Source: a virus
Virus record (IMG/VR): IMGVR_UViG_3300017528_000567
Span: 186,001 to 250,000 of that record
Reading direction: 5' to 3' (one strand)
DNA length: 64,000 nt
How positions within the stretch are numbered: the stretch's first letter is position 1; every line of letters begins with the position of its first letter. Below the pieces are notes generated by a model that saw only the letters and a program-made list of their open reading frames with translations, made no database searches and had not been told where the DNA came from. Below, one piece after another: positions 3,426 through 43,229 of the stretch. The translations under genes were made by a program, and so were the position numbers.

Positions 3426-5433
<2,008 letters not shown>

Positions 5434-5905: not shown

Positions 5906-7309
5906 TCAATCCGTGCCCTTCAAATTAGCCACGGGATAGAGCCGGCTCCGGACCGTCGCGATCCTCTCCGCCTCCAGCACCGCAAGGACTTCATCAAGGT
6001 CCTTGTAGACGTGGCCGCACTCGTCCAGCGGCGTGTGCCGATGGTTGCCGATGATGCCCTCGACCATCGTACCGCCGAAGGAGCGCTGCACATTGGCCAT
6101 CTCGTCATCGATGTACTTCTGCTTGTGCTCCAGCTTCCGCTTTGCCTCACCCCGCGCAAGCAGCCGCCCAGACCCATGGTTCACAGAGCAAGCCGACTTG
6201 TGAGCCTCGGAACCGGGGAAAAGGATTGCCGCGCCCTCGTACATCGAGCCAGGAATCAAACATGGGTGTCCCGTCGCCTCCCAAACCGTGCCCATCAGGT
6301 CCGGGTGCCCCGCGGGGAACGCACGGGTCGAGCCCTTGCGATGAACAAAGCCCTTTCTATGCGTCCCGTCCGGCAACACGAGTGTCTCCTGTTGCACCAG
6401 GTTGTGCGAGATCTCGAAATAGACCTCAAGATCCGCGTTGAAGACCTCCTGCGTTGCTTCTCTCACGCCTTCGACGATCAAGTGCCGATTGGCTACCGCA
6501 AAGTTTGCCGCCGAGTTGTGATGCGCCCAGTACTCCTGTCCGAGCGGCTCGTCCATGCGTAGCCAGGATTCTTCGCGGCGGTTCTTTGCCAACCCGCGCA
6601 GCTCCGCACCTGCATAGAAGAAGTGGTTAGCCGTCTGCCACCCGTAACCGCGTGACCCGCAATGCACCATCACCCAAACTTCGCCGGTGTCCCGGTCACA
6701 CTGCATCTCGATGAAATGGTTGCCGCCGCCGACCGAGCCCAGCTGGTCCGAGACCTTGTCGTAGGCCTTCTCGATCTTGTGAAGGTCGAGCGTGTCCGGG
6801 ATTGGGATAAATCTCCGCTCACACAGAGCCTCATCAACCCCGAGCGCCTTCGCCCCATAACGCAGGATCTCATCCGCCTTGTTCTGCGAAAAACGCTTCA
6901 TCAGCGCGGGGCGATTATGTCCCACCCCCGTCGCGACTCGCTTCTCAACTTCATCGATCCACTCGCGCCGCTTGTGCTTGCTCTTGACGGATCCAGCCGA
7001 AAGGTGCGCCTTCATGTACAGAACCCCACAAGAGATGTCGTAGCCAGACCCGCCCTGGATGACGGTATCCTCCGTCACAATCACTGACCCCACGGGCACA
7101 CCGTAGCCAACATGGCAATCGGGAAGCAGGTACGCTCCAATCACACCTTCATAAGACGCCCCATTGGCGATCTGTTGCCACACACCCTCTTCTGACGCCG
7201 CGTAGAGCTCATCAGACAGGAAAGCATGCGCCTCCGTTCGCATGGTGCCGACTCTAGGAAGGACATAATGCGCATCACCAACTTTGTAGGCCTGGTACTT
7301 GAAAGACAT
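5906..7309 (-). CDS. rtcB: RtcB-type RNA ligase
   Basis: I place the start at ATG 7309 (MSFKYQAYKVGD), with GGAG upstream; a further 17 in-frame codons are probably not translated. The prot ein is 467 residues long. RtcB motifs appear in order: PDCHVGYGVPVG, YDISCGV with a metal-binding cysteine, GSVGGGNHFIE, VHCGSRGYG, ISHNLVQQE, HRKGSTRAFPA and NHGSGR with the histidine that forms the RNA-guanylate intermediate. The family joins 2',3'-cyclic phosphate or 3'-phosphate ends to 5'-OH ends using GTP and Mn2+. In a phage it would plausibly reseal tRNAs cut by host defence nucleases. No Archease (RtcB cofactor) gene is seen nearby. Confidence 0.92.
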   Translation of the reverse strand: MSFKYQAYKVGDAHYVLPRVGTMRTEAHAFLSDELYAASEEGVWQQIANGASYEGVIGAYLLPDCHVGYGVPVGSVIVTEDTVIQGGSGYDISCGVLYMKAHLSAGSVKSKHKRREWIDEVEKRVATGVGHNRPALMKRFSQNKADEILRYGAKALGVDEALCERRFIPIPDTLDLHKIEKAYDKVSDQLGSVGGGNHFIEMQCDRDTGEVWVMVHCGSRGYGWQTANHFFYAGAELRGLAKNRREESWLRMDEPLGQEYWAHHNSAANFAVANRHLIVEGVREATQEVFNADLEVYFEISHNLVQQETLVLPDGTHRKGFVHRKGSTRAFPAGHPDLMGTVWEATGHPCLIPGSMYEGAAILFPGSEAHKSACSVNHGSGRLLARGEAKRKLEHKQKYIDDEMANVQRSFGGTMVEGIIGNHRHTPLDECGHVYKDLDEVLAVLEAERIATVRSRLYPVANLKGTD

Positions 7310-7320
7310 GACCCGACTCC

Positions 7321-7355
7321 AAAAGAAAAGGGGCGATGACTCGCGCCACCGCCCC
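7321..7355 (-). terminator. Intrinsic terminator after the vWA gene
   Basis: On the minus strand a GGGGCG ... CGCCCC stem is followed by TTTTCTTTT. It sits between the vWA stop (7379) and the rtcB start (7309), so rtcB would depend on read-through or on a promoter overlapping this short gap. Confidence 0.7.
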
Positions 7356-7378
7356 AGCATACTACAGTTTAGGAAAGG

Positions 7379-28198: not shown

Positions 28199-31100
28199 TC
28201 ATTCGGTCACGGGACGCGAAGCGAATTGGCGCCTGATCACACTCACGAACTCCTCAACAATCAATGGCTTCGTGAGGTACGCCACAAAGCCAGCCCGCAC
28301 TCCTCGCTGTTTATCGCGCTCCGATACAGCTGCCGAAATCGCAATCACCGGCACATGTTGCGTCTTTGGGTCATTACGAAGTTCGTAGAGCGCCTCAAGC
28401 CCCGACATTCCCGGCAGGTTGATATCCATGAGTATCACATCCAACCTGTGAGCCCGAGCGATCTCGAGGCCAAGCTCACCGGTCGTCGCAGTCAGCAACG
28501 CAACATCTTCAAAAAAGTTGCTTACCAAGTCCTGCATGAGCACGAGATTGGCAGGGTTATCCTCCACATAAAGGATGCGCCGTGCGTTCACCGACGCAAC
28601 TTTTGACTGCAGTGGGCGGTCCTGTAAGCGACTTCGGTCGTCAGGAGACGCGATCGGGATGTCAACCCAAAACTCCGAGCCCTCACCGAGCACACTGCGA
28701 AAGCCCACCTCGCCGTGCATGAGTTGCACCAACCGTTTTGCAACGAACAGACCGACGCCCGTGCCTTCGATCACTCCCGCTTCCTGTCCAGCGCGTTGGA
28801 AGGCTTGGAAGAGTTTGTCTTGCTTATCTTTCGGAATACCGCAGCCCGTATCCGATACGGCGAGTCGCACGTGGTTCGCATCCACAACCGAGAGGTGCAG
28901 CCCGACTTTGCCCCCAGGCCGATTGTACTTGATCGCGTTCGTAGCGAAGTTCATCACGATTTGATTAAGGCGTGTGCGGTCGGCAGCCACCAACGGCAAC
29001 TTCTCGGGAGCGGGTTCCAGAGTGATCGTGATGTCGGACTGAGCTGCCAACGGCTCAAGCGTAGGCATCAGCTCTTCCATGGCATCGTACGCGCTCGTCG
29101 GTTCGATAGACATCGACATGCCCCCCGATTCGATCCGCGACAAGTCCAAAATGTCCTCGATCAAGCGCAGCAAGTGCTCGCCGCCTTTGAGCACGTGTTG
29201 AGCTCGCTCGCGTTGGCGTTCAGGCAGCGGCGTCTTCCTGTCTTGCAACAAGAGCTGGGTGAACCCCAGGATGGAATTGAGCGGCGTACGCAGCTCGTGG
29301 CTCACTAGCGAGAGAAACTCGCTCTTGGCTCTGCTTGAAGCTTCGGCGATGGCGTGCGCCTCACGCAGTTCCTCGGCTCGCTTGCGATCACTCAGGTCCA
29401 ATACAAAGCAGATACCCTCGTCGCCGGTGCCATCGCGCAGAGCGCCACCCATCAAGACCGGGATCCGGTGGCCGTCCTTGTGGACGAATTCTTGCTCGTA
29501 CACGGGAATCACTCCCGTGCGCCGACACTGCTCCGCCACAAGAGCGCCTTGCTCCCAATACTCCGGAGGCGTGAAGTCACGCCAGCTGAGTTGTCCGGAG
29601 GCCAGTTCCTCGCGCGAGTATCCGATCATCTCCGCGAACGAAGCATTGGCATCCAAGATCGTCCCTTCATAGTTGCCCGTGACAACGCCGAAAATCCCAG
29701 ACTCAACCAGTCTTTGGAAGCGGGACTCACTATGGCGCAGCGCGGTTTCTACACGTAGGCGTTCGGCTGTTTCAGCTTCAGCAACTGCATGCGCCCCGCG
29801 CAACTGCTCTGCCCGCTTGCGATCGGTCAGATCCAGCACAAAGCAGATGCCCTCGCTCCCAGCGTCGTCAGTCAGGGCAGAGCCGATCAGGACGGAGATT
29901 CGGCGGCCGTCTTTATGGATAAATTCTTTCTCGTACGCCGGATGCGATCTCGTACTGGAGGCCCGAGACAGCTTAATCACACTCGCATCTAGCTCCCGAT
30001 ACTCTCTGGGTGTGAGGTCGTCCCAGCGCATTTGTCCGGAGGCCAAATCGTCTCGCGAGAAACCGAGCAGATTCAGAAACGCATCATTGGCATCCAGGAT
30101 GTCTCCTTGCGTGCCCGCCGTGAAAATGCCGATGATCCCGCTGGCACCGAGCCTTTCGAAACGCGCCTCACTCTGGTGGAGCGCAGCTTCGATGCGCTTA
30201 AACCCAGTTAGGTCCAGCACGAAGCATGTGCCCTGTGCAGCGTCCTCGATCTGAGCCCCACCGATCAAAACGGGTACTCGGTGGCCGTCTTTGTGTAGAT
30301 ATTCCTTCTCGTACACGGGAATCACACCCGTGCTCTGACATCGCTCCACCATCAGCGCATCTTGCGCCCGCAACTCCTGTGGCGTGATTTGATCCCAGCG
30401 TATCTGGCCAGAGGTGTAATCCTCTCGCGAGTAACCAAGCATATCCAGGAACGCCCCATTAACATCCAGGATGTTCCCCTTGAGGTCGCCCGTAATGATC
30501 CCGATGATCCCGGACTCGGCGAGTCTTTGAAAACGCCGTTCACTCTTGCGTAGCTCGAGCTCGGCGCGCTTACGTTCGGCCTCCACACGCTTGCGGTCGC
30601 TCAGGTCCAAGACGAAACAAACACCCTCATCGGGGTCGTCGTCGATCTGGGCACCGCCAATCAAGACAGGGACTCGGCTGCCGTCCTTGTGGAAGTACTC
30701 TTTCTCGTACACGGGAGCCACTCTCGTGTCCCGACAGGCCGCCGTCACACGCGCATCCTGCTCCCAGAACTCCGGAGGCGTGAGTCGATCCCAACGGAGC
30801 GATCCAGAGGCCACATCCTCTCGCGAATAGCCGAGCATCTCCAAGAATGCGGCGTTGGCTTCCACGATTGTGCCGTCATATCCGGCGGTGATAATCCCGA
30901 TGACTCCGGCCTCAGCCAGTCTGTGGAAGCGCGACTCGCTCCTACGGAGCGCAGTTTCGGTCCGCTTGTGCTCCCTCAGGTCGAGAACACAGCTGATAGC
31001 CTCGCGCCCCTGCCCAGGCTCATCAAGCACCGCAGAACCAATCAGAACTGGGACTCGGCTGCCGTCCTTGTGGAAGTACTCTTTCTCGTACCCGTGAAGT

Positions 31101-31891
31101 ACTCCCGTGCGCTCTAATTGTTCGCGCGCACGATCGTCTCTCTCCCAATACTCCGGAGGCGTGAGCCGCCTCCCGCCAAGTCGGCAGAATTCCTCCCGCG
31201 AGTAACCCAGCATCGTCACGAACGCCTCATTGACATCCACGATGTTCCGATCCAGGTCGGCCGACACGATGCCAAGAATCCCCGCATCGGCCAGTCGCTT
31301 GAAGCGTCTTTTACTCTTGACGAGCTCCGCTTCTACGCGCTGACGTTCAGCGATTTCTGCCTCAGCAATCGCTTGCGCCTTCTTGACCTCCTCAGCGCGC
31401 TTCTGACCACTCAGGTCCAGGACAATGCAGATGGCTTCGTCCGCGGTACTGTCGAGATGGGCACCACCGATCAATACTGGGATTCGCCGGCCGTCTTTAT
31501 GTACGAGTTCTTTCTCGTACGGGAGGACCACGCCTGTGCCCCGGCCGTCCGCCTTCACCCTCATGTCCCGGTCCAATAACTCCGGAGGAGTCAGCCGGTC
31601 CCAACGGATTTTCCGCGAGATCAGTTCGTCTCGCGAGTAACCAACCATACCCAGAAAAGCGGCATTCGCCTCTAGGATGGTCATTTGAGAGTTGGTCGTG
31701 AAAATGCCGATGAGCCCGGTATCGGCGAGGCGCTGGAACCGCAACTCGCTCTTACGGAGCGCTGCTTCTACGCGCTCGCGTTCGGCGATTTCGGCCTGCA
31801 GAGCGGCCTCCAGTCGTTTACACTCGAGGGTCTGTGCCGTCAATCGTGACAGCTCTAGTTGAGGGTCGCAGGCCCCTGGTTCAGTACCCAT
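28199..31891 (-). CDS. Hybrid histidine kinase with six PAS domains
   Basis: Start chosen at ATG 31891 (MGTEPGACDPQLE), parallel to the short kinase; a GTG at 31960 is possible. The product is about 1230 residues. Six PAS repeats of about 125 residues precede the kinase; each begins like RFQRL or RFKRLA and ends in VLDLSxxKR. After them come HisKA (FLSLVSHELRTPLN), HATPase_c (NFATNAIKYNRPG, DTGCGIP, GTGVGLFVAKR) and a receiver (VILMDINLPG, AYLTKPL). The repeats differ enough to have diverged after duplication. Its paralogue lies next to it, 158 bases away. Function in the infection is unknown. Confidence 0.92.
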   Translation of the reverse strand: MGTEPGACDPQLELSRLTAQTLECKRLEAALQAEIAERERVEAALRKSELRFQRLADTGLIGIFTTNSQMTILEANAAFLGMVGYSRDELISRKIRWDRLTPPELLDRDMRVKADGRGTGVVLPYEKELVHKDGRRIPVLIGGAHLDSTADEAICIVLDLSGQKRAEEVKKAQAIAEAEIAERQRVEAELVKSKRRFKRLADAGILGIVSADLDRNIVDVNEAFVTMLGYSREEFCRLGGRRLTPPEYWERDDRAREQLERTGVLHGYEKEYFHKDGSRVPVLIGSAVLDEPGQGREAISCVLDLREHKRTETALRRSESRFHRLAEAGVIGIITAGYDGTIVEANAAFLEMLGYSREDVASGSLRWDRLTPPEFWEQDARVTAACRDTRVAPVYEKEYFHKDGSRVPVLIGGAQIDDDPDEGVCFVLDLSDRKRVEAERKRAELELRKSERRFQRLAESGIIGIITGDLKGNILDVNGAFLDMLGYSREDYTSGQIRWDQITPQELRAQDALMVERCQSTGVIPVYEKEYLHKDGHRVPVLIGGAQIEDAAQGTCFVLDLTGFKRIEAALHQSEARFERLGASGIIGIFTAGTQGDILDANDAFLNLLGFSRDDLASGQMRWDDLTPREYRELDASVIKLSRASSTRSHPAYEKEFIHKDGRRISVLIGSALTDDAGSEGICFVLDLTDRKRAEQLRGAHAVAEAETAERLRVETALRHSESRFQRLVESGIFGVVTGNYEGTILDANASFAEMIGYSREELASGQLSWRDFTPPEYWEQGALVAEQCRRTGVIPVYEQEFVHKDGHRIPVLMGGALRDGTGDEGICFVLDLSDRKRAEELREAHAIAEASSRAKSEFLSLVSHELRTPLNSILGFTQLLLQDRKTPLPERQRERAQHVLKGGEHLLRLIEDILDLSRIESGGMSMSIEPTSAYDAMEELMPTLEPLAAQSDITITLEPAPEKLPLVAADRTRLNQIVMNFATNAIKYNRPGGKVGLHLSVVDANHVRLAVSDTGCGIPKDKQDKLFQAFQRAGQEAGVIEGTGVGLFVAKRLVQLMHGEVGFRSVLGEGSEFWVDIPIASPDDRSRLQDRPLQSKVASVNARRILYVEDNPANLVLMQDLVSNFFEDVALLTATTGELGLEIARAHRLDVILMDINLPGMSGLEALYELRNDPKTQHVPVIAISAAVSERDKQRGVRAGFVAYLTKPLIVEEFVSVIRRQFASRPVTE

Positions 31892-32067
31892 GTGTCTCTT
31901 TACATGCTCATGACTGCGCTCGTCCAGTGCATGTTTCGATCGGCTTATCAAAAACCACAAGCACTACAGACGCTTGTGGCCGCTGTAGCTAGCCACCGTC
32001 CCGCGACGCACTCATGACACCCAGCGGAGCCGCGGCCCCATTGTTCTTTTTCTGCCGTCTCTGAAGC

Positions 32068-34320: not shown

Positions 34321-34453
34321 AGGCCGCCCGTGGAGTCGAACCACTGACTTGTAAGAGCGATGCGGTGTCCCCTCGCGGGAACGAGTTCATCACTCTGGGA
34401 GCTTGCGCTCCAGCTCCGTAGGCTGGCGGGGAACCGATCCCCTGTAGGCGGCC
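34321..34453 (-). ncRNA. tRNA-Arg(ACG)-like gene with long structured insert
   Basis: The 133-nt element has a 7-bp acceptor (GGCCGCC/GGCGGCC), anticodon arm CCAGC-CTACGGA-GCTGG (loop as in the normal tRNA-Arg(ACG) at 44137) and T-arm GTGG-TTCGACT-CCAC. Between anticodon arm and T arm lie roughly 60 extra bases that hold small hairpins (GAGC-GCAA-GCTC and CCC-GCGA-GGG). Two other genes of similar length in the window have this form. Confidence 0.55.
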
Positions 34454-34548
34454 AAGACTTCGTTCTCGCTCGAGTGCCGGACCTGGTTAGCTTGTATGCC
34501 TGGTTAATAGCCGGGTGCGAGTACCATCTCGCGTTCATAGGGCTTGCG

Positions 34549-34582
34549 CCTTATGTCAGGATTCGAACCTGTGCGTGTAAGG
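34549..34582 (-). ncRNA. T-arm minihelix, possible tRNA remnant
   Basis: CAGG-TTCGAAT-CCTG (a T arm) sits on a CCTTA/TAAGG stem, giving an acceptor-like minihelix. No matching D or anticodon arms are found around it. Confidence 0.35.
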
Positions 34583-34605
34583 TCATGCTAGTGAACGAGA
34601 ACTGG

Positions 34606-34715
34606 TGGGGCCTGAAAGAGTCGAACTTTCAAGGTCTTGTGGGCACTCGAGAGGGATCCTTGCAGACCCGAGGTACTAGTGCCGTGTCAGTAGGCGGCCA
34701 CCCGCCAAAAGCCCC
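34606..34715 (-). ncRNA. tRNA-like element with aberrant internal region
   Basis: Acceptor GGGGCTT/AGGCCCC pairs, the discriminator A and an encoded CCA follow, the D-arm GGCG-GGTGGC-CGCC and T-arm GAAAG-TTCGACT-CTTTC are intact. The region between them (about 60 nt) does not give a clear anticodon arm. Length 110 nt, so it is not a normal tRNA. Confidence 0.5.
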
Positions 34716-34853
34716 ATGTGACCGTCTTTCCGGCCTGTCACTCAACTCGCTCGATGCCACTCTAGATAGAGGGTGACACAAGCTAACTCCTTGCGTGCTT
34801 GCTACACAGCCGGTGCCGAACAGGACAACCGACAGCGCAATCAATGCGTTCAT
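34629..34853 (-). CDS. Possible small secreted or membrane protein
   Basis: ATG 34853 follows a GGAG site. The first 20 residues are hydrophobic (MNALIALSVVLFGTGCVAST), like a short signal peptide; the cysteine could be a lipobox but the -3 position is glycine, so this is weak. The frame later overlaps the tRNA-like element at 34606-34715, which argues against it. Low support. Confidence 0.3.
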   Translation of the reverse strand: MNALIALSVVLFGTGCVASTQGVSLCHPLSRVASSELSDRPERRSHGAFGGWPPTDTALVPRVCKDPSRVPTRP

Positions 34854-34931
34854 CTCTATAACTCCGTCGCGCCACAGTGCCATCCCTTCATACACCGAAA
34901 GATCACAAAACCGCGCGACGCACCAAAAAAG

Positions 34932-36098
34932 TCACTTCATCTGAGCAGCCGCGGCTTGCAGAACCGCACGCGTGTCATCTGAAATTCCCGTCAGTTTCTG
35001 CACCATCCACTCAAGAATGACTTTGCCCTTCTGCATGCGCGTGAGGACCTTGGAGCCACCTTGATAGAAGTACTCGCCAAAAACCGCGTTCAGCAGGCGT
35101 TTGCCGCCAAGTCTCACGGAGATCAGCGCCACAGTATCGTGCTCACCCAACACAACAGGCTTGCCATTGAGAACGAGCGTGACCTGATACCCATCCTTGT
35201 TATACGCGCCAGCCTTGGGGTCATTGTAATGACCGGGCTCCGGCCCAAAAGTCGCCACATGCAGCTTGAGCTCGACAACCTGCTTGCGGCCCGCCACTGC
35301 TGGCGCGTCACCGGCAACTTGGCCGGACTCTACTAGCCAGTGCTTGAGAGAGATCTCTGGGCTGGCCGGCAGTTTCTCGGAGAGGCTCCAGCCTCTCGCA
35401 TCCCGCACCTTGGAGTTGAAGCGCCCGTTGTACTCGAAGTCGCCGGTCGGTAGCCCGAACGCCGTCGAGATCTGGCGATGCAGCCACGCCGGGTTACTCT
35501 GCTCGTCCTTCTTGATCGGCAGCTTGTGTGTCTGCATATCCCAGACATCACGCCGCCCACCGCCGCCAACGTAGTAGTCACTTCTTGAGACATGGACAGC
35601 AACCACAAACACATGCTGGTCAGCCGTTCGCCCATAGTACGCATACGCGTGTCGCGAGAACGATGACTCGTCACCCGAGTAGCCCCCCTTATCCCGCTGT
35701 GTCGCGGTCGTGAACTGCCACTCCACCCCACCCGGGATACCAGCGCCAGCTCGGGCCTGCTCCCAAGTGACCACCACATCCTTCGGCGGCGTCCACTGCT
35801 GCCGTGGTGGCGCATCATCAGCCCACGAAGGTTCTGTCTGCGGGACTGGCTGTGATGACCCCGGATCCTCACGGTACAGAGGCTGAGGCTTTTTCGGAAA
35901 GAGCAGATCGTACGCCCGATTGACCTCTTGCATCGCGAAGGTAGAACCGCCGCTATCGGGGTGCACATCGCGTAGCTTCGACCGAACCGCTTTCTTAGCG
36001 TCTGCCTCGGTCGGTGCGTCGTGAGGCCCGAAACCAAGCAAAGCCAGAGCTTCCTGCCTGGTCATCGTGATTCGAGCTTCGCGAAAATCGTACGTCAT
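34932..36098 (-). CDS. J-domain (DnaJ-like) protein
   Basis: Start at ATG 36098 (MTYDFREARITM). The product is 388 residues. A J domain occupies about residues 12-70: MTRQEALALLGFG, then KLRDVHPDSGGS with the essential HPD motif, then QEVNRAYDLLF. A proline-rich linker follows and a C-terminal beta-rich domain (from about 100) that is not the usual DnaJ zinc finger or C-terminal fold. J proteins recruit and stimulate a Hsp70. No DnaK gene is seen here, so the host DnaK is the likely partner. Shares its first residues (MTYDFR) with the 37135 gene. Confidence 0.8.
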   Translation of the reverse strand: MTYDFREARITMTRQEALALLGFGPHDAPTEADAKKAVRSKLRDVHPDSGGSTFAMQEVNRAYDLLFPKKPQPLYREDPGSSQPVPQTEPSWADDAPPRQQWTPPKDVVVTWEQARAGAGIPGGVEWQFTTATQRDKGGYSGDESSFSRHAYAYYGRTADQHVFVVAVHVSRSDYYVGGGGRRDVWDMQTHKLPIKKDEQSNPAWLHRQISTAFGLPTGDFEYNGRFNSKVRDARGWSLSEKLPASPEISLKHWLVESGQVAGDAPAVAGRKQVVELKLHVATFGPEPGHYNDPKAGAYNKDGYQVTLVLNGKPVVLGEHDTVALISVRLGGKRLLNAVFGEYFYQGGSKVLTRMQKGKVILEWMVQKLTGISDDTRAVLQAAAAQMK

Positions 36099-36283
36099 AC
36101 GTTGGAGCCTCAGAAGCGCAGTAGGCGGCCAAAGAAGGGGTGGCGCGCCCGACTCCCCAGGTTGAGCTCTAGCGCTACACCGGAGCGCGCAGAGCTCGAC
36201 CTGTTCAGGTCGATCCAACAATAGAAAAGCGGTGGAGGGCCGCAGCCTGTTGCGTAATTTGGAAGCGCCGCAGCGACGCAGGA

Positions 36284-36790
36284 CTAGGTCAAGTCAACGC
36301 GTCGATTGAAAGGCTGCGATCGCCAAGCCCCAAAGAGCCCAAACTCTCGCGCCTGGCGGACGGCTGGGACGAGATGCAACCAAGCTTCGTAGGGCATGGA
36401 TCCCCGCATATAGTTACATCTCAAGCAGGCGGGCAGGACGTTGGCTCGAGTATGCGCCAGCGAGTTGTCGATACGGTCAAGAGTGATCCGCATCTCGGTC
36501 TCACCACAATAGCAGCACCCCTGCCTAATCAACGCGGCCACAAAATCGCGATTCAGATCGTTACCCGGCCTACCGCGCTTCTTGTCAGAACTTCTAGAAT
36601 CCGTAACCAGAACCACAACAGGATGGTTAGCTCTGTACCGAGCATCTTTTTTGCTTCGCGCCTCCGGATGGAGAGCCCTTTTGCGCTGCGTACGGCAATT
36701 GCTACACGTCCTCCGTCGGTACCCAGAGGACGAAAGGTCAAAGCCGGACAACGGCTTCTCAACCTGACAAACTCTACAGACCCTTGTCAT
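36284..36790 (-). CDS. HNH endonuclease next to a tRNA array
   Basis: A 168-residue protein. N-terminal CxxC pairs (CRVCQVEKPL and CSNCRTQR) and a basic linker precede an HNH core: CCYCGETEMRITLDRIDNSLAHT, ANVLPACLRCNYMRGS. The histidine and asparagine of the core are present. Beside the tRNA-like genes of the second array, so a mobile or homing enzyme is likely. It lies between the J-domain gene and the tRNA-Tyr-like element. Confidence 0.8.
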   Translation of the reverse strand: MTRVCRVCQVEKPLSGFDLSSSGYRRRTCSNCRTQRKRALHPEARSKKDARYRANHPVVVLVTDSRSSDKKRGRPGNDLNRDFVAALIRQGCCYCGETEMRITLDRIDNSLAHTRANVLPACLRCNYMRGSMPYEAWLHLVPAVRQAREFGLFGAWRSQPFNRRVDLT

Positions 36791-36796
36791 CGTTAG

Positions 36797-36930
36797 TGGG
36801 GGATGAAGGAGTCGAACCTTCTATGCTTGAAAGCACCCGAAAGGGTTCCCGACGACTGCCGAAAACGAGTGTGCGGTGCTGGTCGATGCTTTCGATTTAC
36901 CGTCGAAGTGGGGCCAACCCCCAACCCCCC
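36797..36930 (-). ncRNA. tRNA-Tyr(GTA)-like gene with long structured insert
   Basis: 134-nt element. Acceptor GGGGGGT/ATCCCCC, anticodon arm TTCGA-CGGTAAA-TCGAA with GTA in the anticodon position, T-arm GAAGG-TTCGACT-CCTTC. About 65 extra bases between the anticodon and T arms contain an AGCACC/GGTGCT pairing and other hairpins. Position 33 would be G. A second normal-looking tRNA-Tyr(GTA) lies at 45050. Confidence 0.55.
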
Positions 36931-37046
36931 AATGGACCGAGTCCCTGACTGCCGCGCCGTCGTTCGACCCAGGTACTCGGCGGAGCTGGGCAACTCTTTG
37001 GCGACGTGGCAGCACCTCAGCGAGCTACACCACTAGGGTGCCGCAG

Positions 37047-37117
37047 TGCGGGTAGAGGGAATTGAACCCTCACCTCATGCTTGGCAAGCATGCGTTCGAC
37101 CGTTGAACTATACCCGC
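37047..37117 (-). tRNA. tRNA-Gly (anticodon GCC)
   Basis: Acceptor GCGGGTA/TACCCGC; anticodon arm CATGC-TTGCCAA-GCATG. Confidence 0.92.
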
Positions 37118-37134
37118 GAAACTACTGCCACTAC

Positions 37135-38220
37135 TCAAAAGGAGTAGTCGAATAACGCTGATGACGCCGTCTTCTCCTCACCGGCCTCACTCAACACCTT
37201 GTTGAGATGCGCTGCCAGATACTCCGCAATCTTGGCGGGCGTGCCTGACTTGGCGCGGAGCAATGTCTTGGCGCGGTCACCGCCGAAGAAGTTCGTGAAC
37301 TGCTCGACCTTGACCTTGACCACCGCCTGGTCGCGATCCTTCCGATCAAACCCAGCAATGGTGAACTGCAGGCGGCCCTTATCTTTGATGAAGAGTTTGC
37401 AGTACAGCGCCCCACTTCCACCGAGCTGGTGCTCCGACCGGTCGATCGTAAACTCTGCGTCACCCTTGACCTTGACCTTGACCTTGACCTTCGATTCGAG
37501 CCAATCGGCGAACTTGTTGAAGCTCATCGCGCCGGGAGTCTTCTTGACCTCTTCAGCCTTCGCCGCCGCGGCCTCCTCCTGCTCGACCTTCATCTTTGCT
37601 TTCATCTCTTCGGGATCGACAACCGTCGGAGCGACCTTGCCATCGATCAGGTCCTGCACAAGCGGCGCGGCCTTCAGCCCAACTTCCTTGCCGATCGCCG
37701 ACCAAGTTTCCAATTCCTTGCGCGCCTCGCCGAGCTCGTGCATCGACGCTGGCTTCGGCTCACCGTTGATGACCCAAGTCGCCCCCTTCAGTTGGGCTAC
37801 CAGGTGCTTGGTCTGCGCAAATACCAGCGCCTTGATCCCATCAAAGTCAGCCTTCGGAAACTCTTTCATGAACTCCGAGACGGCAGAGGCATTCGAGTAC
37901 CCGGTAAGACCAGCCCACTGAACGTGGTCTTGTGCATCCAGATACATACACCCTGCCACACCCGCATACGTACTGGCCTTGGGTTTGTTCCAGCTCAACG
38001 CGGCATCCTTCTCAGGCTCACCACCCGGATACCACGCCTTCGAAGTCTGCTCGACAAGGCGAAAGCCCTGCCTCGCCTTGAACTCTAGCCATACACGCTT
38101 GCGGCACCTGGCTTTGAAGCCACTAGGATAGTCGTCGATCACATAAGCGTTCTGAGGGCTATCGTGTCCGTACAGAGGTTTCTTGCTGCTGGCGGTGCGC
38201 ACTCGAAAGTCGTAGGTCAT
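37135..38220 (-). CDS. Hypothetical protein
   Basis: Start at ATG 38220 (MTYDFRVRTASSKK); the product is 361 residues. The middle has a charged coiled stretch (EEMKAKMKVEQEEAAAAK) and a run of alternating K and V (SKVKVKVKVKGDAEF) at about 265. The C-terminal domain has RLQFTIAGFDRKDRDQAVV. It starts with the same hexapeptide as the J-domain gene and follows tRNA-Gly(GCC). No family is recognised. Confidence 0.65.
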   Translation of the reverse strand: MTYDFRVRTASSKKPLYGHDSPQNAYVIDDYPSGFKARCRKRVWLEFKARQGFRLVEQTSKAWYPGGEPEKDAALSWNKPKASTYAGVAGCMYLDAQDHVQWAGLTGYSNASAVSEFMKEFPKADFDGIKALVFAQTKHLVAQLKGATWVINGEPKPASMHELGEARKELETWSAIGKEVGLKAAPLVQDLIDGKVAPTVVDPEEMKAKMKVEQEEAAAAKAEEVKKTPGAMSFNKFADWLESKVKVKVKVKGDAEFTIDRSEHQLGGSGALYCKLFIKDKGRLQFTIAGFDRKDRDQAVVKVKVEQFTNFFGGDRAKTLLRAKSGTPAKIAEYLAAHLNKVLSEAGEEKTASSALFDYSF

Positions 38221-38492
38221 GTCTAGAACGTGACATAAGAAGCCTATGGCAGTTAGGGGGCAACGTCCCAATCTATGAAGATCTATTGCAGACTATTTGC
38301 CAGACTATTTTGCACCTACATCTCGAGTGAAAAGCGCTAGGTTTCCCCACCGCGTCCCCTAGCGGACGCCCATTCGCCAAGCCCCCGGCTCGGCTGGTGG
38401 TCATTGCGCTCTGTGCGCTGCTTCTGGCGCGGGCAGGGAGGCACCCTACGCGCCGTAATCCTCTGGTGAGCCCGCTCATAAGAAGGGCTCTC

Positions 38493-38660
38493 ATGACTCA
38501 TTTCGTTTGCTCTAGTTGCGGCGCCGGCGTCCATCACGATGAACACCCGGAAGGCCGGCCTGTCCTTGCCTGCGATTGCGACCCCAACGAAGCCAAGCCG
38601 ATCGAGGTTCCCTACTATTCTGAAGCCGAAGAGTGGGATGACTGGATTCGAAGGCGTTGA
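38493..38660 (+). CDS. Small zinc-ribbon-like protein
   Basis: A 55-residue protein on the plus strand from ATG 38493, MTHFVCSSCGAGVHHDEH. The cysteines CSSC and CDC plus a histidine may bind zinc. The tail is acidic and then basic (EEWDDWIRRR). The composition fits phage small zinc proteins. The start and strand switch are not otherwise supported. Confidence 0.5.
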   Translation: MTHFVCSSCGAGVHHDEHPEGRPVLACDCDPNEAKPIEVPYYSEAEEWDDWIRRR

Positions 38661-38676
38661 CTCCCGGCACAGCTGG

Positions 38677-38748
38677 CGCACACGACCCGACTCGAACGGG
38701 CATTATCCTGGGTGAAAACCAAGGGTCCTACCATTAGACGACGTGTGC
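38677..38748 (-). tRNA. tRNA-Glu (anticodon TTC)
   Basis: Acceptor GCACACG/CGTGTGC; anticodon arm CTTGG-TTTTCAC-CCAGG; encoded CCA. Confidence 0.9.
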
Positions 38749-38875
38749 AGAGGTCCGTGACGGCGGCATAGAACGCAAGCCTCGCAGCCGGGCGCAGACC
38801 TCGTTGATCAAGCGAGCGCCGCCACTACGACTTAGAAGGTCGCCGCGTATTCTTAAAGCCTGTGTCACGAACCGG

Positions 38876-38949
38876 CACCCCCACGGGGCGACGATCCCCG
38901 TTCACGTCACTGAGAATGACGTATCCTAACCAACGTAGACGATGGGGGC
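38876..38949 (-). tRNA. tRNA-Glu (anticodon CTC)
   Basis: Acceptor GCCCCCA/TGGGGGT; anticodon arm CGTCA-TTCTCAG-TGACG; T-arm CGGGG-ATCGTCG-CCCCG, a non-standard T-loop. Confidence 0.82.
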
Positions 38950-39042
38950 ATGTAACCTGTAACCATACATCATGCAGGCGCTTGAACATTCACCGGCGCC
39001 CGATTGTATTCGCAGGGTCACGCAAACCGAACAGGAGTCGCC

Positions 39043-39234
39043 ATGAAGCCACGCATGACCGCCCTCACTTGCACCTTGCTTGTACGAACCTTCGCCTCTT
39101 TAGAAGCCGGAGCCAAAGAGGTAACCGAGGCACTTGGCTGGGTGAACTATTTTCTCGCCACTTGGATCAGCCTCGACCATTCGAGCTCGGTCGGACGTAA
39201 ACGTGCGGTCAAACTGCCGCCAGCTTCGAACTAG
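39043..39234 (+). CDS. Possible small protein
   Basis: A 63-residue reading frame from ATG 39043, behind AGGAGT. The sequence begins MKPRMTALTCTLLV, positive then hydrophobic, so it might be exported. Its end is 9 bases from the tRNA-Phe region. Only the ribosome site supports it. Confidence 0.4.
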   Translation: MKPRMTALTCTLLVRTFASLEAGAKEVTEALGWVNYFLATWISLDHSSSVGRKRAVKLPPASN

Positions 39235-39242
39235 GCGTGTGG

Positions 39243-39317
39243 TGGGTTGTCCAGGAGTCGAACCCGGTTCTACCGCTCTTCAGGCGGTCGCTGAATAACC
39301 GTACTAGCTCACAACCC
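39243..39317 (-). tRNA. tRNA-Phe (anticodon GAA)
   Basis: Acceptor GGGTTGT/ACAACCC; anticodon arm ACCGC-CTGAAGA-GCGGT; encoded CCA. Confidence 0.92.
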
Positions 39318-39321
39318 ATAG

Positions 39322-39395
39322 AGCCCGTGATGGGGATCGAACCCACCGAAGTCCGCGGTACGAGTGCGGTGCCTCACCATTGAGGCGACACGGGC
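39322..39395 (-). tRNA. tRNA-Thr (anticodon CGT)
   Basis: Acceptor GCCCGTG/CACGGGC; anticodon loop CTCGTAC with stem CCGC/GCGG. Confidence 0.88.
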
Positions 39396-39416
39396 AGAAT
39401 CATAAGGCGATCACGC

Positions 39417-40031
39417 TCAAGTCACGGGGCTCTCTATCGGAGCGATTGCGAAGCGGATGCGGCGGACCTGGGCCGTGTTTGCCGAGCCCACTCTGCGCAG
39501 CTGCAGCACAAGCGAAGGTGCGTCGAGTGCATTAGCCGCCAAGATAACAGACCCCGAAAAAGAAGTGTAGAAAGTCAGGTTGTTGGAGCTTTCAGCCCGC
39601 TCCACCCCCGCCCACAAGATTCTAGCCGAGACCCCTGATGTTGAATCCGCGGTCACGACGGCTAGCTCACTGTAAAAGGAGACCAGATAGTTTCCGCCTG
39701 CCAAAAGCCCTGACTGCATCGTAGCCTTGGTAACGTAAGTCGTGCCCGGCTCCGTTTGAACGCCCTCCGAAAACAACGTCTGAGCTCCACGCACGTACCC
39801 CACACCAGTGTGAGTATTACAGACATTGTCGATGGCGGTCAGATCTGCGGCGCTCGGGGTAACGTTGAACTGAAGGACGAGGGTCCCAGTCGCCACAGTG
39901 GAAAAAGTGCTCACACACTTGGCACTGGTAATGGCCGCACCGATCTGCGCCTCAAGGACCTCGATGTTTGGCCAAGAGGTAGTGAGGGCCGAGAAGCCCC
40001 CGGGCACATTCTTAGTGATTTGGTAAGCCAT
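39417..40031 (-). CDS. Probable virion structural protein
   Basis: A 204-residue beta-rich protein with many small residues, starting MAYQITKNVPGGFSA behind AAAGGA. It has features of phage capsid-decoration or fibre proteins, such as TPGTTYVTKATMQSG and a Ser/Thr/Gly-rich core (VTADSTSGVSARI). No catalytic motif. No homologue is named. Between tRNA groups. Confidence 0.55.
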   Translation of the reverse strand: MAYQITKNVPGGFSALTTSWPNIEVLEAQIGAAITSAKCVSTFSTVATGTLVLQFNVTPSAADLTAIDNVCNTHTGVGYVRGAQTLFSEGVQTEPGTTYVTKATMQSGLLAGGNYLVSFYSELAVVTADSTSGVSARILWAGVERAESSNNLTFYTSFSGSVILAANALDAPSLVLQLRRVGSANTAQVRRIRFAIAPIESPVT

Positions 40032-40176
40032 CGGTCGTCCTTTGGACCTTGGTACACCGAGAACTCCCGCCGTCCCATGCCGGCCGCGGCGGAAACCAAA
40101 ATATGCGGTTGCCTACTGATTTGTTCGGGCCGCACCCGGCACTCTCGGGCCTATCTCTCACGTAGGTGGTTCTCGG

Positions 40177-40247
40177 CACGCCGCCCGGGACTCGAACCCG
40201 GATGAAGAGTTTTGGAGGCTCCCATCTTGCCATTAGATGAACGACGT
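40177..40247 (-). tRNA. tRNA-Trp (anticodon CCA)
   Basis: Acceptor ACGTCGT/GCGGCGT with G.T pairs; anticodon loop CTCCAAA. Confidence 0.82.
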
Positions 40248-40349
40248 AAGACCCACGGGCACCACTGGAACGTCTCGAGGACGACTTACCCAGAGTAACC
40301 GCAACGTTCTTAGAACGACTTACGCGGCTTTGGTGCTGGACGTGGTTGG

Positions 40350-40421
40350 TCGAGCTGGCGGGAATTGAACCCGCTGCCTCCTGTTCCCGAAACAGGCGTC
40401 ATACCGATTGACTACAGCTCG
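40350..40421 (-). tRNA. tRNA-Pro (anticodon CGG)
   Basis: Acceptor CGAGCTG/CAGCTCG; anticodon arm CCTGT-TTCGGGA-ACAGG. Confidence 0.9.
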
Positions 40422-40425
40422 TTGG

Positions 40426-40499
40426 TCTAGATGGAGGGATTCGAACCCACGGCCTCACCGCCCCAAACGGTGCGCACTACCAGGCTGTGCTACATCTAG
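40426..40499 (-). tRNA. tRNA-Pro (anticodon TGG)
   Basis: Acceptor CTAGATG/CATCTAG; anticodon arm CACCG-TTTGGGG-CGGTG; encoded CCA directly adjoining tRNA-Pro(CGG). Confidence 0.92.
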
Positions 40500-40521
40500 A
40501 TACTCGTCACAACATTCTCGG

Positions 40522-40594
40522 TCGGCCGTAGAGGAGTTGAACCTCTTTCTCCACGTTATCAGCGTGGCAAACTAAACCCTAGTTATAACGGCCG
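40522..40594 (-). tRNA. tRNA-Ile (anticodon GAT)
   Basis: Acceptor CGGCCGT/ACGGCCG; anticodon arm CCACG-CTGATAA-CGTGG. Confidence 0.9.
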
Positions 40595-40654
40595 TGGCTA
40601 AAGCCGCCTCTCGCGAGACGGCCTCGTTGCTCCTTCCGCACATGGCGGATGAGC

Positions 40655-40846
40655 TCAGTTCGGGAGATCTTCCTCTGAGTTGACCAACGCCACCACGAGC
40701 TCGGTACCATTCGGCCCGATGCCTTCGGCGTTGAGGTAGACCTCATCAAGCGACGCCGAGTACCTCTGCCTCTTGATACCGATGGTCACGGGCCGGTCAG
40801 GGTCCGTGCATTGACTCAAGATGCGGATGAGCTCGCCGACGGTCAT
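40655..40846 (-). CDS. Small hypothetical protein
   Basis: A 63-residue protein from ATG 40846 (MTVGELIRILSQCTDPDRPV). The pattern MTVGELIxxL, then charged residues and a beta strand (RPVTIGIKRQRYSA), is common among small phage and bacterial proteins of unknown role. The frame's N-terminal extension overlaps the Thr(TGT)-like remnant, so I exclude it. Confidence 0.55.
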   Translation of the reverse strand: MTVGELIRILSQCTDPDRPVTIGIKRQRYSASLDEVYLNAEGIGPNGTELVVALVNSEEDLPN

Positions 40847-40894
40847 ACGAAAAAAATAGAGAGCGCTCGAGGAATCAGGCAGGATAACCTCTTT

Positions 40895-40967
40895 CGAGGG
40901 CGACTGGGATCGAACCAGCAACATTCTGTGTACAAGACAGATGCTCTACCAAATGAGCTACGCGTGT
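40895..40967 (-). pseudogene. Degenerate tRNA-Thr(TGT)-like gene
   Basis: Anticodon arm TCTGT-CTTGTAC-ACAGA and T-arm GCTGG-TTCGATC-CCAGT pair, but only three of seven acceptor pairs form. A normal tRNA-Thr(TGT) exists at 33299, so this copy may be decayed. Confidence 0.55.
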
Positions 40968-40995
40968 ATGCCTGATGAAGTGAACGCTCTCGGAT

Positions 40996-41065
40996 GCGAA
41001 CCCCTGGAGTCGAACCAGGTTTCTCCGGCTTATGAGGCCGGCGGATTGCCGTCTTCCCCGGCCGC
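40996..41065 (-). tRNA. tRNA-Met (anticodon CAT)
   Basis: Anticodon arm CCGGC-CTCATAA-GCCGG; acceptor GCGGCCG/GGTTCGC with two mismatches. Initiator-specific features are absent; it could also be a lysidine-type Ile tRNA. Confidence 0.75.
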
Positions 41066-41125
41066 CATGTAGAGAACTTACACCAAAAGAAAATGAGAGC
41101 AGCGCTCGAGAGATCAAGCAGAGAG

Positions 41126-41197
41126 TTCGCAAAGCGGGGATTGAACCCGCCTAGTCTTTTTTGGATGAAAGGTGCCCCACCTTGGGGCGATTTGCTT
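41126..41197 (-). pseudogene. tRNA-like remnant
   Basis: D-arm GCCCC-AAGGT-GGGGC and T-arm GGCGGG-TTCAATC-CCCGC are present, but the anticodon stem is AT-rich and poorly paired and the acceptor has five pairs. The amino acid cannot be assigned. Confidence 0.45.
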
Positions 41198-41226
41198 GTG
41201 TGCTCGATCGAAGTGAATGCTGCTCG

Positions 41227-41299
41227 GCTCCTAGGGAGGGTAACGATCCCCCAACCACGCCGTTAACAGCGGCGCGCTCTACCGTTGAGCTACCTAGGA
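41227..41299 (-). tRNA. tRNA-Asn (anticodon GTT), copy 1
   Basis: Acceptor TCCTAGG/CCTAGGA; anticodon arm CGCCG-CTGTTAA-CGGCG; T-loop ATCGTTA, which is non-standard. Confidence 0.82.
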
Positions 41300-41305
41300 A
41301 AATGG

Positions 41306-41380
41306 CTGGGACGGAGGGCCTCGAACCCCCAAATCACTTGGTTAACAGCCAAGCGGCTTACCTGCTTTGCCTACATCCCA
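41306..41380 (-). tRNA. tRNA-Asn (anticodon GTT), copy 2
   Basis: Acceptor TGGGATG/CGTCCCA; anticodon arm CTTGG-CTGTTAA-CCAAG; encoded CCA. Adjacent to copy 1. Confidence 0.85.
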
Positions 41381-41408
41381 ATGAACCGGGGACACCCCGG
41401 CAGAAACT

Positions 41409-41624
41409 TTAGAAGCAGCTCTCAACGCCCATCCCGATCGGAGCGGGGCGATGATACTGACAGCGGACTTTCTCGAGCTGCAGCTTGAGCTTACCGTCCG
41501 CGCCGACCACGTGTTGAAAATAGTGCCCGTGAGCCACGCCATCTTGGATGGCATCTGTGGAGGGCTGCAGGACTGCGATCCCACAAATGCCACACACCCC
41601 TGGTCTGATGTTCTTGTTCGGCAT
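41409..41624 (-). CDS. Small zinc-binding hypothetical protein
   Basis: A 71-residue protein starting MPNKNIRPGVCGICG. The cysteine pair CGIC and a later cysteine with histidines (VRCQYHRPA) suggest a zinc site. It lies 16 bases from the next small gene. Unknown function. Confidence 0.55.
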   Translation of the reverse strand: MPNKNIRPGVCGICGIAVLQPSTDAIQDGVAHGHYFQHVVGADGKLKLQLEKVRCQYHRPAPIGMGVESCF

Positions 41625-41639
41625 TGGTCTCCCCGATGG

Positions 41640-42008
41640 TCACCAATCGTAACAAGGGCGTTTGAAGTCCTCCAACGAGTGCCGGCTCGGAACCGTCTGC
41701 CCTGACCGCGCTCCAAGCATGTCCTTGCGAACCACTGCCGTCCCGTCAGCTCGAACGTCTTCTCGATACCACGCGCCAAAGTTTACAGCCTTCGGGACCC
41801 TCTGGCCCTCTACCACGAACAAGCACAAGCGAGGTGGTCCCCCTAATGTGCCGGCCATGTCCGTAAATTCGAGGATTGCTTTACCCGCTAGCAGCCGGTT
41901 AATCACCTTCAAGGTGGCTATACACGGCTTGTCCGGACCCAGGATCCTCATGAGATAGTTGAACCTCTTCGTTTCAAAATCTATCGCTTTTGGCATTGAC
42001 TGGCTCAA
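41640..42008 (-). CDS. Hypothetical protein
   Basis: A 122-residue protein with an alpha/beta pattern (NYLMRILGPDKPCIATLKVI, RLCLFVVEGQRVP). Starts MSQSMPKAID. No family recognised. Lies between a small gene and the first copy of the 84-bp repeat. Confidence 0.6.
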   Translation of the reverse strand: MSQSMPKAIDFETKRFNYLMRILGPDKPCIATLKVINRLLAGKAILEFTDMAGTLGGPPRLCLFVVEGQRVPKAVNFGAWYREDVRADGTAVVRKDMLGARSGQTVPSRHSLEDFKRPCYDW

Positions 42009-42022
42009 TGAACCGGGCCTCT

Positions 42023-42106
42023 CCCCGGTAGGTCACGCCTGATTCGGTCGACTGGCTTTGTGCCAAGTGGCAGTGGCGTTCCTTCGTGCGGCGCTACACC
42101 GCGGCG
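42023..42106. repeat. Direct repeat, copy 1 (84 bp)
   Basis: Shares 80-odd bases with 43145-43227, including CCCCGGTAGGTCACGCCTG and GCGGC.CTACACCGCGGCG. The central hairpin (TGGC-loop-GCCA here) changes sequence between copies but still pairs. This copy lacks the tRNA-like 3' half found beside copy 2. Confidence 0.75.
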
Positions 42107-42107
42107 C

Positions 42108-42491
42108 CTACCTGCGAGCGCCGATAATCTCAAGAACCATTTCGGCAACCATGTCGACAGTGATGAGGCCGATCTTGGCCGCGTGCGACCGCTGAACCTT
42201 CCGCTTGTACATGGAATCGAAGTCCAGATGGACCGTCGCCTCGAAGTTCGCCGACGCCAACGTGAGGGACACCGAGCCACTCAAGTCGAAGTCGCTGATG
42301 TCCGTGCCCTCGACGATGAGGAAACTCATCGAGATGCCATCGCGGACCCTACATGTACAGTACTTCTGCTTGGCATTCACAATCCTGCCAACTTCCCCGA
42401 GGAACTCCGCTTCAGCGCGCTTCAGGTAGTCGTTGAAGGACTTGCTAGTGTCGGTGCGGGGATCGGAGGACTCGGTTGCTGACTTGGACAT
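42108..42491 (-). CDS. Hypothetical protein
   Basis: A 127-residue protein from ATG 42491 (MSKSATESSDPR), after a serine/aspartate-rich leader. The central part holds TLASANFEATVHLDFD and a helix TVDMVAEMVLEII. Upstream in-frame residues would overlap a degenerate tRNA-like stretch and are excluded. Unknown function. Confidence 0.6.
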   Translation of the reverse strand: MSKSATESSDPRTDTSKSFNDYLKRAEAEFLGEVGRIVNAKQKYCTCRVRDGISMSFLIVEGTDISDFDLSGSVSLTLASANFEATVHLDFDSMYKRKVQRSHAAKIGLITVDMVAEMVLEIIGARR

Positions 42492-42652
42492 GTTCTTTAC
42501 CTTCCGGTCTAGGAACAATCCACAGGGGCCATTCTTCAAGCTCAAGATGCGTTTTCCAGAACGCACCCTTGCACACACTGACCCCTCCATCGAGCTACCC
42601 CGGCGCGGGACCCTGAGTGGACCCCATAAATCTCTGATTTGAGGCCTTATGC

Positions 42653-43066
42653 ATGCGTACCATAGGTCTCGCTCTACTATTCGCCCTCATCGCGCCCTTC
42701 TCAGCTAACGCACAGGAAAACACCCCTGCTGCGACGGGAGGATCGACCGAGGTAACATCAACCCCAAGCCACCATTCCGACACAGAGCACAAATTCGGGT
42801 TCGGGCTTCGCTTGAAAGCTGCTGTTGGTGTCCACGCTCGCGACATAGTCGACGGGCGGAGACTTCTTGACTCCGGAGACGTCGGAATAATGATTGAGCC
42901 GCTCCACTTTTACCGCGCTAACCTGAACGCGTTCGCAAGCTTTCGCTCCGTTGGAATAGGTCTCGGCCACGATGTCACTCCGCACTTCGGCCTAGCAATC
43001 CTGGCCAACACGCCCTGGGAACAATGGCGACCTACGCCATTCCTAAGTGCGTACTTCGTATTTTGA
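42653..43066 (+). CDS. Exported small beta-rich protein
   Basis: A 137-residue protein with a Sec-type signal peptide (RTIGLALLFALIAPFSANAQ) and likely cleavage after ANA. The mature part has alternating beta segments (FGFGLRLKAAVGV, VGIMIEPLHFYRANLN, SVGIGLG), like a small outer-membrane or periplasmic protein, and ends in FVF, a typical terminal aromatic of outer-membrane proteins. A phage protein sent out of the cytoplasm may act at the host envelope, for example in superinfection exclusion. Function is inferred only from the signal and ending. Confidence 0.65.
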   Translation: MRTIGLALLFALIAPFSANAQENTPAATGGSTEVTSTPSHHSDTEHKFGFGLRLKAAVGVHARDIVDGRRLLDSGDVGIMIEPLHFYRANLNAFASFRSVGIGLGHDVTPHFGLAILANTPWEQWRPTPFLSAYFVF

Positions 43067-43092
43067 GAGGGGCGTACTCTGACGAGGGCTGG

Positions 43093-43229
43093 CGTCCCCG
43101 GAAGGATTTGAACCTTCACGCCAGCCTTCGTGGCGCCTTTCCATCCCCGGTAGGTCACGCCTGATTCGGTCGACCGGCCGATGGCCAGTGGCAGTTGCGT
43201 TCCTTTGTGCGGCTCTACACCGCGGCGAC
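43093..43229 (-). ncRNA. tRNA-like element, about 137 nt, with structured insert
   Basis: The 3' end has T-arm GAAGG-TTCAAAT-CCTTC, acceptor CGGGGAC, and an encoded CCA, very like the tRNA-Arg(ACG) at 44137. The 5' acceptor GTCGCCG pairs with one mismatch. Internally an ACTGG-CCATCGG-CCGGT hairpin is seen. It contains copy 2 of the 84-bp repeat. Confidence 0.5.
43145..43227. repeat. Direct repeat, copy 2 (83 bp)
   Basis: Partner of 42023-42106, about 1.1 kb apart. The CGGCC-GAT-GGCC hairpin replaces the first copy's TGGC/GCCA hairpin. Confidence 0.75.

Follow-up and report, generated by a model that had tools for sequence, protein, structure and literature searches.

A 64,000-nucleotide (nt) stretch of phage DNA (positions 186001-250000 of the 255,478-base IMG/VR record IMGVR_UViG_3300017528_000567; hereafter the window) encodes tRNA-like RNAs with a large extra arm that are likely to be phage Y RNAs, partners of a Ro60 homologue of the same phage for which the arm would provide the Ro-binding stem. 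The elements have a common architecture with covarying helices, some of them are circularly permuted, and across phages they co-occur with, and are linked to, a Ro60-like gene. They come in two topologies, the linear elements (E), which keep the normal tRNA order, being the un-permuted counterpart of the permuted ones (P).

The elements of the window lie on the minus strand [Table 1], as does every one of the 38 tRNA genes called there by ARAGORN. An earlier, sequence-only reading of this DNA had proposed three tRNA-like genes of about 135 nt combining acceptor and T-arm pairing and a 5-bp anticodon arm with some 60 additional hairpin-forming bases between the anticodon and T arms. This description was borne out for two of them, E1 and E2, the former displaying a 7-bp acceptor, a T arm, a D arm and a 5-bp anticodon arm, and the anticodon stem-loop of the latter recurring identically in three other loci (L020, L049 and L085). 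The third candidate (43093-43229) proved to be a different thing: its 5′ part copies a separate repeat (42005-42112) at 88% identity, the tRNA remnant that follows is similar to the 3′ part of tRNA-Arg(acg) from the window, and the acceptor match of the two ends (6 of 7) looks fortuitous. The repeat itself (42005-42112 and ~43144-43227, both on the minus strand, and 416-523 of locus L002) is ~85-105 nt long, and the sequence of its internal hairpin differs between the 88%-identical copies with the pairing kept. Two relatives had been overlooked. One, E4, turned up when the window was searched for T arms accompanied by matching acceptor strands; it lacks an anticodon arm and consists of the acceptor GGGGCTT/AGGCCCC, a D arm, the giant arm, CACAAG, a T arm and ACCA. 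Similar members without an anticodon arm were returned by the strict parser described below from loci L196 and L197. The other, the permuted element P, emerged from a covariance-model search, one of the checks that the sequence-only reading had proposed. The model, R1, was built from other phages, the window's P being absent from its training sequences, and matches positions 34467-34591 over its full length at 66.4 bits (E 1.7e-17); the next-best match in the window reaches 40.2 bits and falls on tandem tRNAs. The inner helix of P pairs 34594-34602 with 34462-34470. E4, P and E1 are arranged in tandem within 400 bases, and E2 is located ~2 kb away. Neither E1 nor E2 was called by ARAGORN or by Rfam at gathering scores (33 Rfam matches in the window), and no Rfam family was found on the spans of E1, E2 or E4, in line with the earlier dismissal of group I introns and transfer-messenger RNA (tmRNA).

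Related loci were collected by a pattern scan of viral contigs and a stricter version thereof, many of the carrier contigs measuring 157-416 kb. The strict parser demands a T arm, an acceptor, a D arm, the motif preceding the T arm, and an arm helix at a fixed distance before CTC. Over all loci, including those later retrieved through the Ro-like protein, the number of distinct relatives that it recognized in contigs of jumbo phages was 67, of which 44 are linear and 23 permuted; two of the 67, in which D arm and outer helix are more than 48 nt apart, were excluded from tabulation. In a first set of 633 kb it returned 43 elements (30 E, 13 P) and none from the same DNA reversed; the elements are thus not chance finds. 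Among 119 loci (1.11 Mb) retrieved with the first, loose pattern, strict elements were present in 10, all of them carrier-phage loci. We think that the parser misses E1 supposedly because the D arm of E1 starts 2 nt late, and at least 30 of the 43 E elements have an anticodon arm, the automatic call failing for some, E2 included. About ten rows of one 56-row candidate table were judged by eye to be chance, and no count given here uses that table. In record G001 (411,618 bases; 55% identity in one protein), the same element is found together with genes ordered 3′ half, linker, 5′ half; an uncalled 201-nt tRNA-like stretch with a 7-bp acceptor, a T arm and a different insert also occurs in this record (L009, 7732-7932, plus strand). 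As R1 was built from 22 P elements, those 22 score by construction; in tRNA arrays devoid of elements (L009, L010, L188, L189, L199 and L208), R1 reached 41.1 bits at most. Several loci are near-copies (L216/L217/L255; L240/L242; L266/L267). Counts of linkage and conservation are not fully independent, as the carriers, in all likelihood, are without exception related jumbo phages. In the near-identical relative L002, E1, E2 and E4 are 100% identical to those of the window and thus uninformative. Among named phages, no DNA similar to the 33-45 kb region of the window was found, and three element clusters compared with them yielded short tRNA-like matches only.

The extra arm is built the same way throughout. 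An 8-bp outer helix is followed by one or a few bases and CUC, which make an internal loop, and then by an inner helix; on the other side, UACA(A/U)G (variants CACAAG and UUCAAG) directly follows the outer strand. The inner helix of E elements forms a closed hairpin, whose loop is often of the GNRA type; in P elements it brings the RNA's two ends together, and the acceptor strands are connected by a linker, which has no more than 10 nt in 19 of 22 cases. CUC is invariant in the alignments of both P (A2, 22 sequences) and linear elements (A3, 36 sequences: 35 of the 43 strict E elements plus E1, eight having been excluded for want of an anticodon arm or for an odd D arm or length); ACA.G shows no variation in A2 and almost none in A3. 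Between the arm and what follows it, 1 to 17 nt or more remain. When 48 elements (31 E, 17 P) were collected without demanding arm pairing, 42 had at least six of eight pairs at the fixed distance of 10-12 nt before CUC, compared to 14 and 8 at other distances; strands crossed between elements paired in 29%. Likewise, the inner helix of 13 P elements scored 9.1 with its own strands and 4.9 with crossed ones. In A2, 96.7% of the cells of 25 pairs are paired, 21 pairs show two-sided changes, and the 147 such changes compare with 43.8 in shuffled alignments, none of 500 reaching that number (covariation score 0.736 vs 0.225); shifting by one column reduced pairing to 47-48%. In A3, two-sided changes affect 21 of 22 pairs and number 247 vs 75.5 in shuffles (0 of 500; score 0.743 vs 0.226). 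Acceptor, T, D and outer pairs, CTC and the motif were selected by the parser and their counts lean towards structure; no such selection acted on the anticodon stem or the inner helix, and the former displays two-sided changes in 5/5 (P) and 4/4 (E) pairs. Comparison of homologous loci thus reveals a conserved, strongly covarying structure, and the suggestion of a giant variable arm in the sequence-only reading gains support from the covariation of the arm helix in the 36 linear relatives.

The remainder of the element is a tRNA body that often seems untuned for decoding. The 43 anticodon loops of seven nt carry 23 different triplets, GTA being the commonest (n = 5), and nine further loops have 8 nt. 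U33 is present in 27 of these 43 loops vs 984 of 1048 ordinary tRNAs from the same loci; the 16 non-U loops (vs 64; Fisher 9e-9) include 11 with a purine (vs 4; Fisher 1e-13). A compact D arm, which we take to be akin to that of tRNA-Sec, is found in 27/43 E elements and 137/1006 ordinary tRNAs. CCA, CTA, CCG or CTG follows the discriminator in 36/43 E elements. All 22 strict P elements have an anticodon arm, and one P without it was noted at L011:10200-10303.

The candidate protein partner is a 646-amino acid (aa) product of the window in which a helical N-terminal part precedes a vWA domain with a DxSxS motif (D452, S454 and S456, invariant in 12 homologues). The eight best PDB matches of its AlphaFold2 model were all Ro60/TROVE structures (Foldseek, E 2e-7 to 4e-6 over 541-566 columns), and the Ro60 of Thermus phage phiLo (9l5y) was among the Foldseek matches. 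VIA-align returned 2i91 over 368 residues (Z 13.6) and 1yvp over 412 residues (Z 13.4), most of its rows matching the vWA domain alone; root-mean-square deviations in the structural comparisons were 9.8-11.6. Judging from the rank order of fold matches and the order of domains, the protein would be a homologue of Ro60/Rsr, from which it differs in its 13-16% identity and in its ThiF-like, JAB-like and 319-aa neighbours. A 789-aa vWA protein (10958-13327), used as the first bait for relatives, is not the Ro-like one.

A putative Ro60/Rsr homologue (profile A1) was detected in 23 of 26 element-bearing records, including the window and, weakly, G012 and G014. Conversely, 56 viral-contig loci were retrieved through the Ro-like protein alone; a strict element lay within 10 kb in 31 of them (none in the reversed-sequence control), and 18 of 38 previously unseen contigs carried one. 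With R1, 30 of the 56 loci yielded a combined 44 matches scoring 55 bits or more, and every one of these shared its strand with the Ro-like gene. Since the protein is 51-70% identical to that of the window in most carriers, the phages are well diverged. In Virus Rctr197k (KX853510.1), which derives from an enrichment and where identity is 58%, an unannotated P element was found (L282 21696-21815, 83.4 bits); it sits ~1.1 kb behind that virus's ThiF-like gene. Bacterial genome contigs harbored the protein at 14 loci (L268-L281), titled as Myxococcota, Deltaproteobacteria or Proteobacteria assemblies plus the isolate Paraliomyxa miuraensis; two of the 14 had P matches of 95-96 bits and two had strict E elements, one of the latter, L276, having three of them immediately in front of its Ro-like gene. 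The occurrence of the family in Myxococcota suggests myxobacterial hosts. The element neighborhoods have in common a 629-aa-type protein, a 317-aa protein, a JAB protein and a ThiF-like protein, and the same set occupies 15127-19451 of the window. In 16 of the 17 loci that have the ThiF-like gene, near-copies (three and two of the loci) included, the first motif-plus-T-arm follows the stop of that gene at a distance of 80-565 nt.

PMC8394870 describes YrlA as an RNA in which the stem formed by the ends holds Rsr and a tRNA-like domain (D, T and acceptor arms) binds PNPase, and PMC11472068 has Y RNA superposing on tRNA with circular permutation. P elements share with YrlA (RF02553) a basal stem with internal loop formed by their own 5′ and 3′ ends and, in all of A2, the order T arm, closed acceptor stem, D arm; E elements differ on both counts. 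A Ro-type protein is encoded nearby, as with YrlA, whereas the presence of several copies per phage with different anticodons, and of unpermuted forms, is unlike it. The Rfam YrlA model aligns P elements in the YrlA register, with a best score of 30.1 bits over the full model; matches below the cut-off were never used alone as evidence, tandem tRNAs scoring similarly. P elements thus appear to resemble YrlA, a recognized mimic of tRNA, in construction and probably in mode of action, in support of the mimicry put forward as one option in the sequence-only reading; they are not filed as YrlA because their scores are far below the cut-off and the model also scores tandem tRNAs. According to other reports, a small fraction of jumbo phages have TROVE proteins (PMC7824862), a Listeria phage makes abundant RNAs close to a candidate Rsr gene that were suggested to be Y RNAs (PMC12282133), and Salmonella possesses an rsr-yrlBA-rtcBA RNA-repair operon (PMC7790460). 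As in that operon, RtcB shares the genome of the window with a Ro-like protein and candidate Y RNAs bearing a tRNA-like domain; unlike the operon, the system is phage-borne and spread over some 30 kb, and RtcB occurs in only 10 of 27 records. The long arm between anticodon and T arms recalls tRNA-Sec and class II tRNAs, from which the elements differ in a far longer arm, in the invariant CUC and conserved UACA(A/U)G, and in the many anticodons. Permuted tRNA genes of algae and archaea are broken at a bulge-helix-bulge and spliced. The order 3′ half, linker, 5′ half is common to them (PMC3978253) and to P elements, in contrast to the long conserved two-helix arm and the mostly short acceptor linkers found here. 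T4 species C and D stable RNAs were dropped as a model when the literature search gave nothing usable.

A number of observations weigh against a Y RNA identity. On the protein side, the fold model is of middling quality (predicted local distance difference test 73.8, predicted TM-score 0.45), TM-scores to Ro60 are low (0.20-0.37), and no TROVE domain was found in the 646-aa protein at E ≤ 1 in Pfam or NCBIfam. On the RNA side, P elements have an anticodon arm, which is absent from the YrlA consensus; the YrlA gathering score of 69 bits was reached in none of 26 records, the window's own P gave no YrlA match, and the YrlA model scores tandem ordinary tRNAs up to ~30-35 bits. As to linkage, three of the 26 records lack a Ro-like protein: G017, a 64.5-kb record with two good P matches (81.1 and 74.1 bits, L201), and G022 (L208) and G024 (L209), whose pattern matches are probably chance since no R1 match of at least 55 bits occurred in the stretches searched. 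Twenty-five of the 56 Ro loci are without a strict element, several loci ending within 4 kb of the gene; the RNAs of the window lie ~15 kb upstream of the Ro-like gene; and the linkage could in part reflect shared phage ancestry.

A more far-reaching version, namely that E elements are genuine chargeable tRNAs whose Ro-binding stem tethers real tRNAs to the Ro60 ring and, at the same time, the un-permuted ancestor form of bacterial Y RNAs, both forms coexisting in one phage, is tentative and rather unlikely to hold in full. In the literature searched, no linear form with free acceptor ends beside a permuted form was found. Small introns, another option of the sequence-only reading, were poorly supported. 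The arm would here be a small variable-loop intron and the permuted elements circularly permuted tRNA genes, both converted to ordinary tRNAs through splicing by an unspecified nuclease or ribozyme and RtcB or another ligase. Permuted tRNA genes are indeed known elsewhere (PMC3978253), the window encodes RtcB, a cut of E1 after AG and before GUC would leave a canonical AGGUC variable loop, discriminator bases often suit the anticodon, and several permuted linkers start with ACC. Yet RtcB is patchy among the records, some members lack an anticodon arm, non-U33 loops are frequent, most permuted acceptor stems are closed by short linkers, and the D arm of E elements is compact as if the arm stays; because the remainder after the arm varies, there is no constant spliced loop. 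When halves of the 43 elements were compared by BLAST with 546 ordinary tRNAs, mostly T-arm similarities and a few partial 5′-half matches were obtained, and no intron-free orthologue that would place a junction. A bulge-helix-bulge intron was also rejected, the arm having one internal loop rather than two 3-nt bulges. All told, splicing strikes us as improbable. Nor do we give much credence to working tRNAs that lack a Ro partner and are shielded by a giant variable arm from defense nucleases that cleave in the variable or anticodon loop (Septu, retron-Eco7, anticodon nucleases): while the frequency of GTA and the alteration of position 33 in many loops would fit, some 20 other anticodons bear the same arm, members devoid of an anticodon arm are incapable of decoding, short loops close most of the P acceptor stems, and the Ro60-like gene and the constancy of CUC and UACA(A/U)G are left unexplained. 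Finally, decaying tRNA genes in a conserved phage region with Ro-like, ThiF and JAB genes, their linkage being mere synteny, would suit carriers that all seem to be related jumbo phages keeping large tRNA arrays, but are very hard to reconcile with the strong two-sided covariation, the near-invariant arm motifs and the same arm in two topologies across phages this divergent.

Besides the genes listed in Table 1, where RtcB is a possible RNA-repair partner separate from the element itself, several observations were made in passing. The HNH protein of the window matches the HNH region of IscB/Cas9d, and several other carriers also have members of its family close to their element cluster. Two related large repeat-bearing proteins, 61% identical over 666 columns, are encoded between tRNA blocks. 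Contigs carrying elements also encode a bacterial class A RNase P RNA (G018, 362,937 bases; L197 12010-12374, minus strand, 299.5 bits) and a tmRNA (G005, 323,174 bases; L193 6896-7295, minus strand, 101.1 bits).

Table 1 Y RNA-like elements and associated genes of the window.
Feature	Position	Strand	Remarks
E1, linear Y RNA-like element	34321..34453	-	Anticodon loop CTACGGA (Arg ACG-like), giant arm, TACAAG, T arm; aligned in A3
P, circularly permuted Y RNA-like element	34462..34602	-	Inner helix; R1 match
E4, linear Y RNA-like element without anticodon arm	34606..34715	-	T-arm scan
E2, linear Y RNA-like element	36797..36930	-	Loop CGGTAAA (Tyr GUA-like, G33), giant arm, TTCAAG, T arm
Ro60-like protein, 646 aa	17511..19451	-	Helical N-terminal part and vWA; Foldseek, profile A1
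319-aa protein	16539..17498	-	Conserved neighbor of the Ro-like gene
JAB-domain protein	16141..16521	-	Conserved neighbor; Prok-JAB 28.6 bits (cut-off 25)
ThiF/E1-like protein	15127..15717	-	64.4 bits (cut-off 28.1); directly upstream of the RNA cluster in related phages
RtcB RNA ligase	5906..7360	-	
GroEL, phage-encoded	3426..5063	-	
HNH protein	13664..14200	-	
Repeat-bearing protein	26082..28040	-	
Repeat-bearing protein	28199..31960	-	

We infer Ro binding to the arm, and the stability of the RNAs as such, from the features above. The extra arm, with its outer helix, CUC loop, inner helix and UACA(A/U)G, would be the putative Ro-binding stem, and the remainder (acceptor, D, T and usually anticodon arms) a tRNA-like effector module read by tRNA-binding machinery. 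Two topologies would be made: in P, as in bacterial YrlA, the inner ends of the arm would be the 5′ and 3′ ends of an RNA whose acceptor is closed by a linker; in E, the arm would be a closed hairpin and the normal tRNA ends would be kept, often followed by CCA or a similar triplet. During infection, the RNA would most likely serve as a scaffold on the Ro ring that presents a tRNA-like bait or tether, PNPase or tRNA-targeting nucleases being the potential targets. The most likely function is that of a Ro60 ribonucleoprotein whose RNA would present a tRNA-like body as a tether, gate or decoy.

A single phage would thus combine two neighboring forms with the same arm, one of them permuted and the other straight, its tRNA ends being free. 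The origin of bacterial Y RNAs, which are permuted tRNA mimics, is not obvious; their descent from tRNAs with a Ro-binding variable arm becomes testable, as does the purpose of the tRNA-like part. Jumbo phages would possess a many-copy, anticodon-diverse Y RNA system with a Ro60 of their own, the natural opponent of which would be tRNA-cutting defenses.

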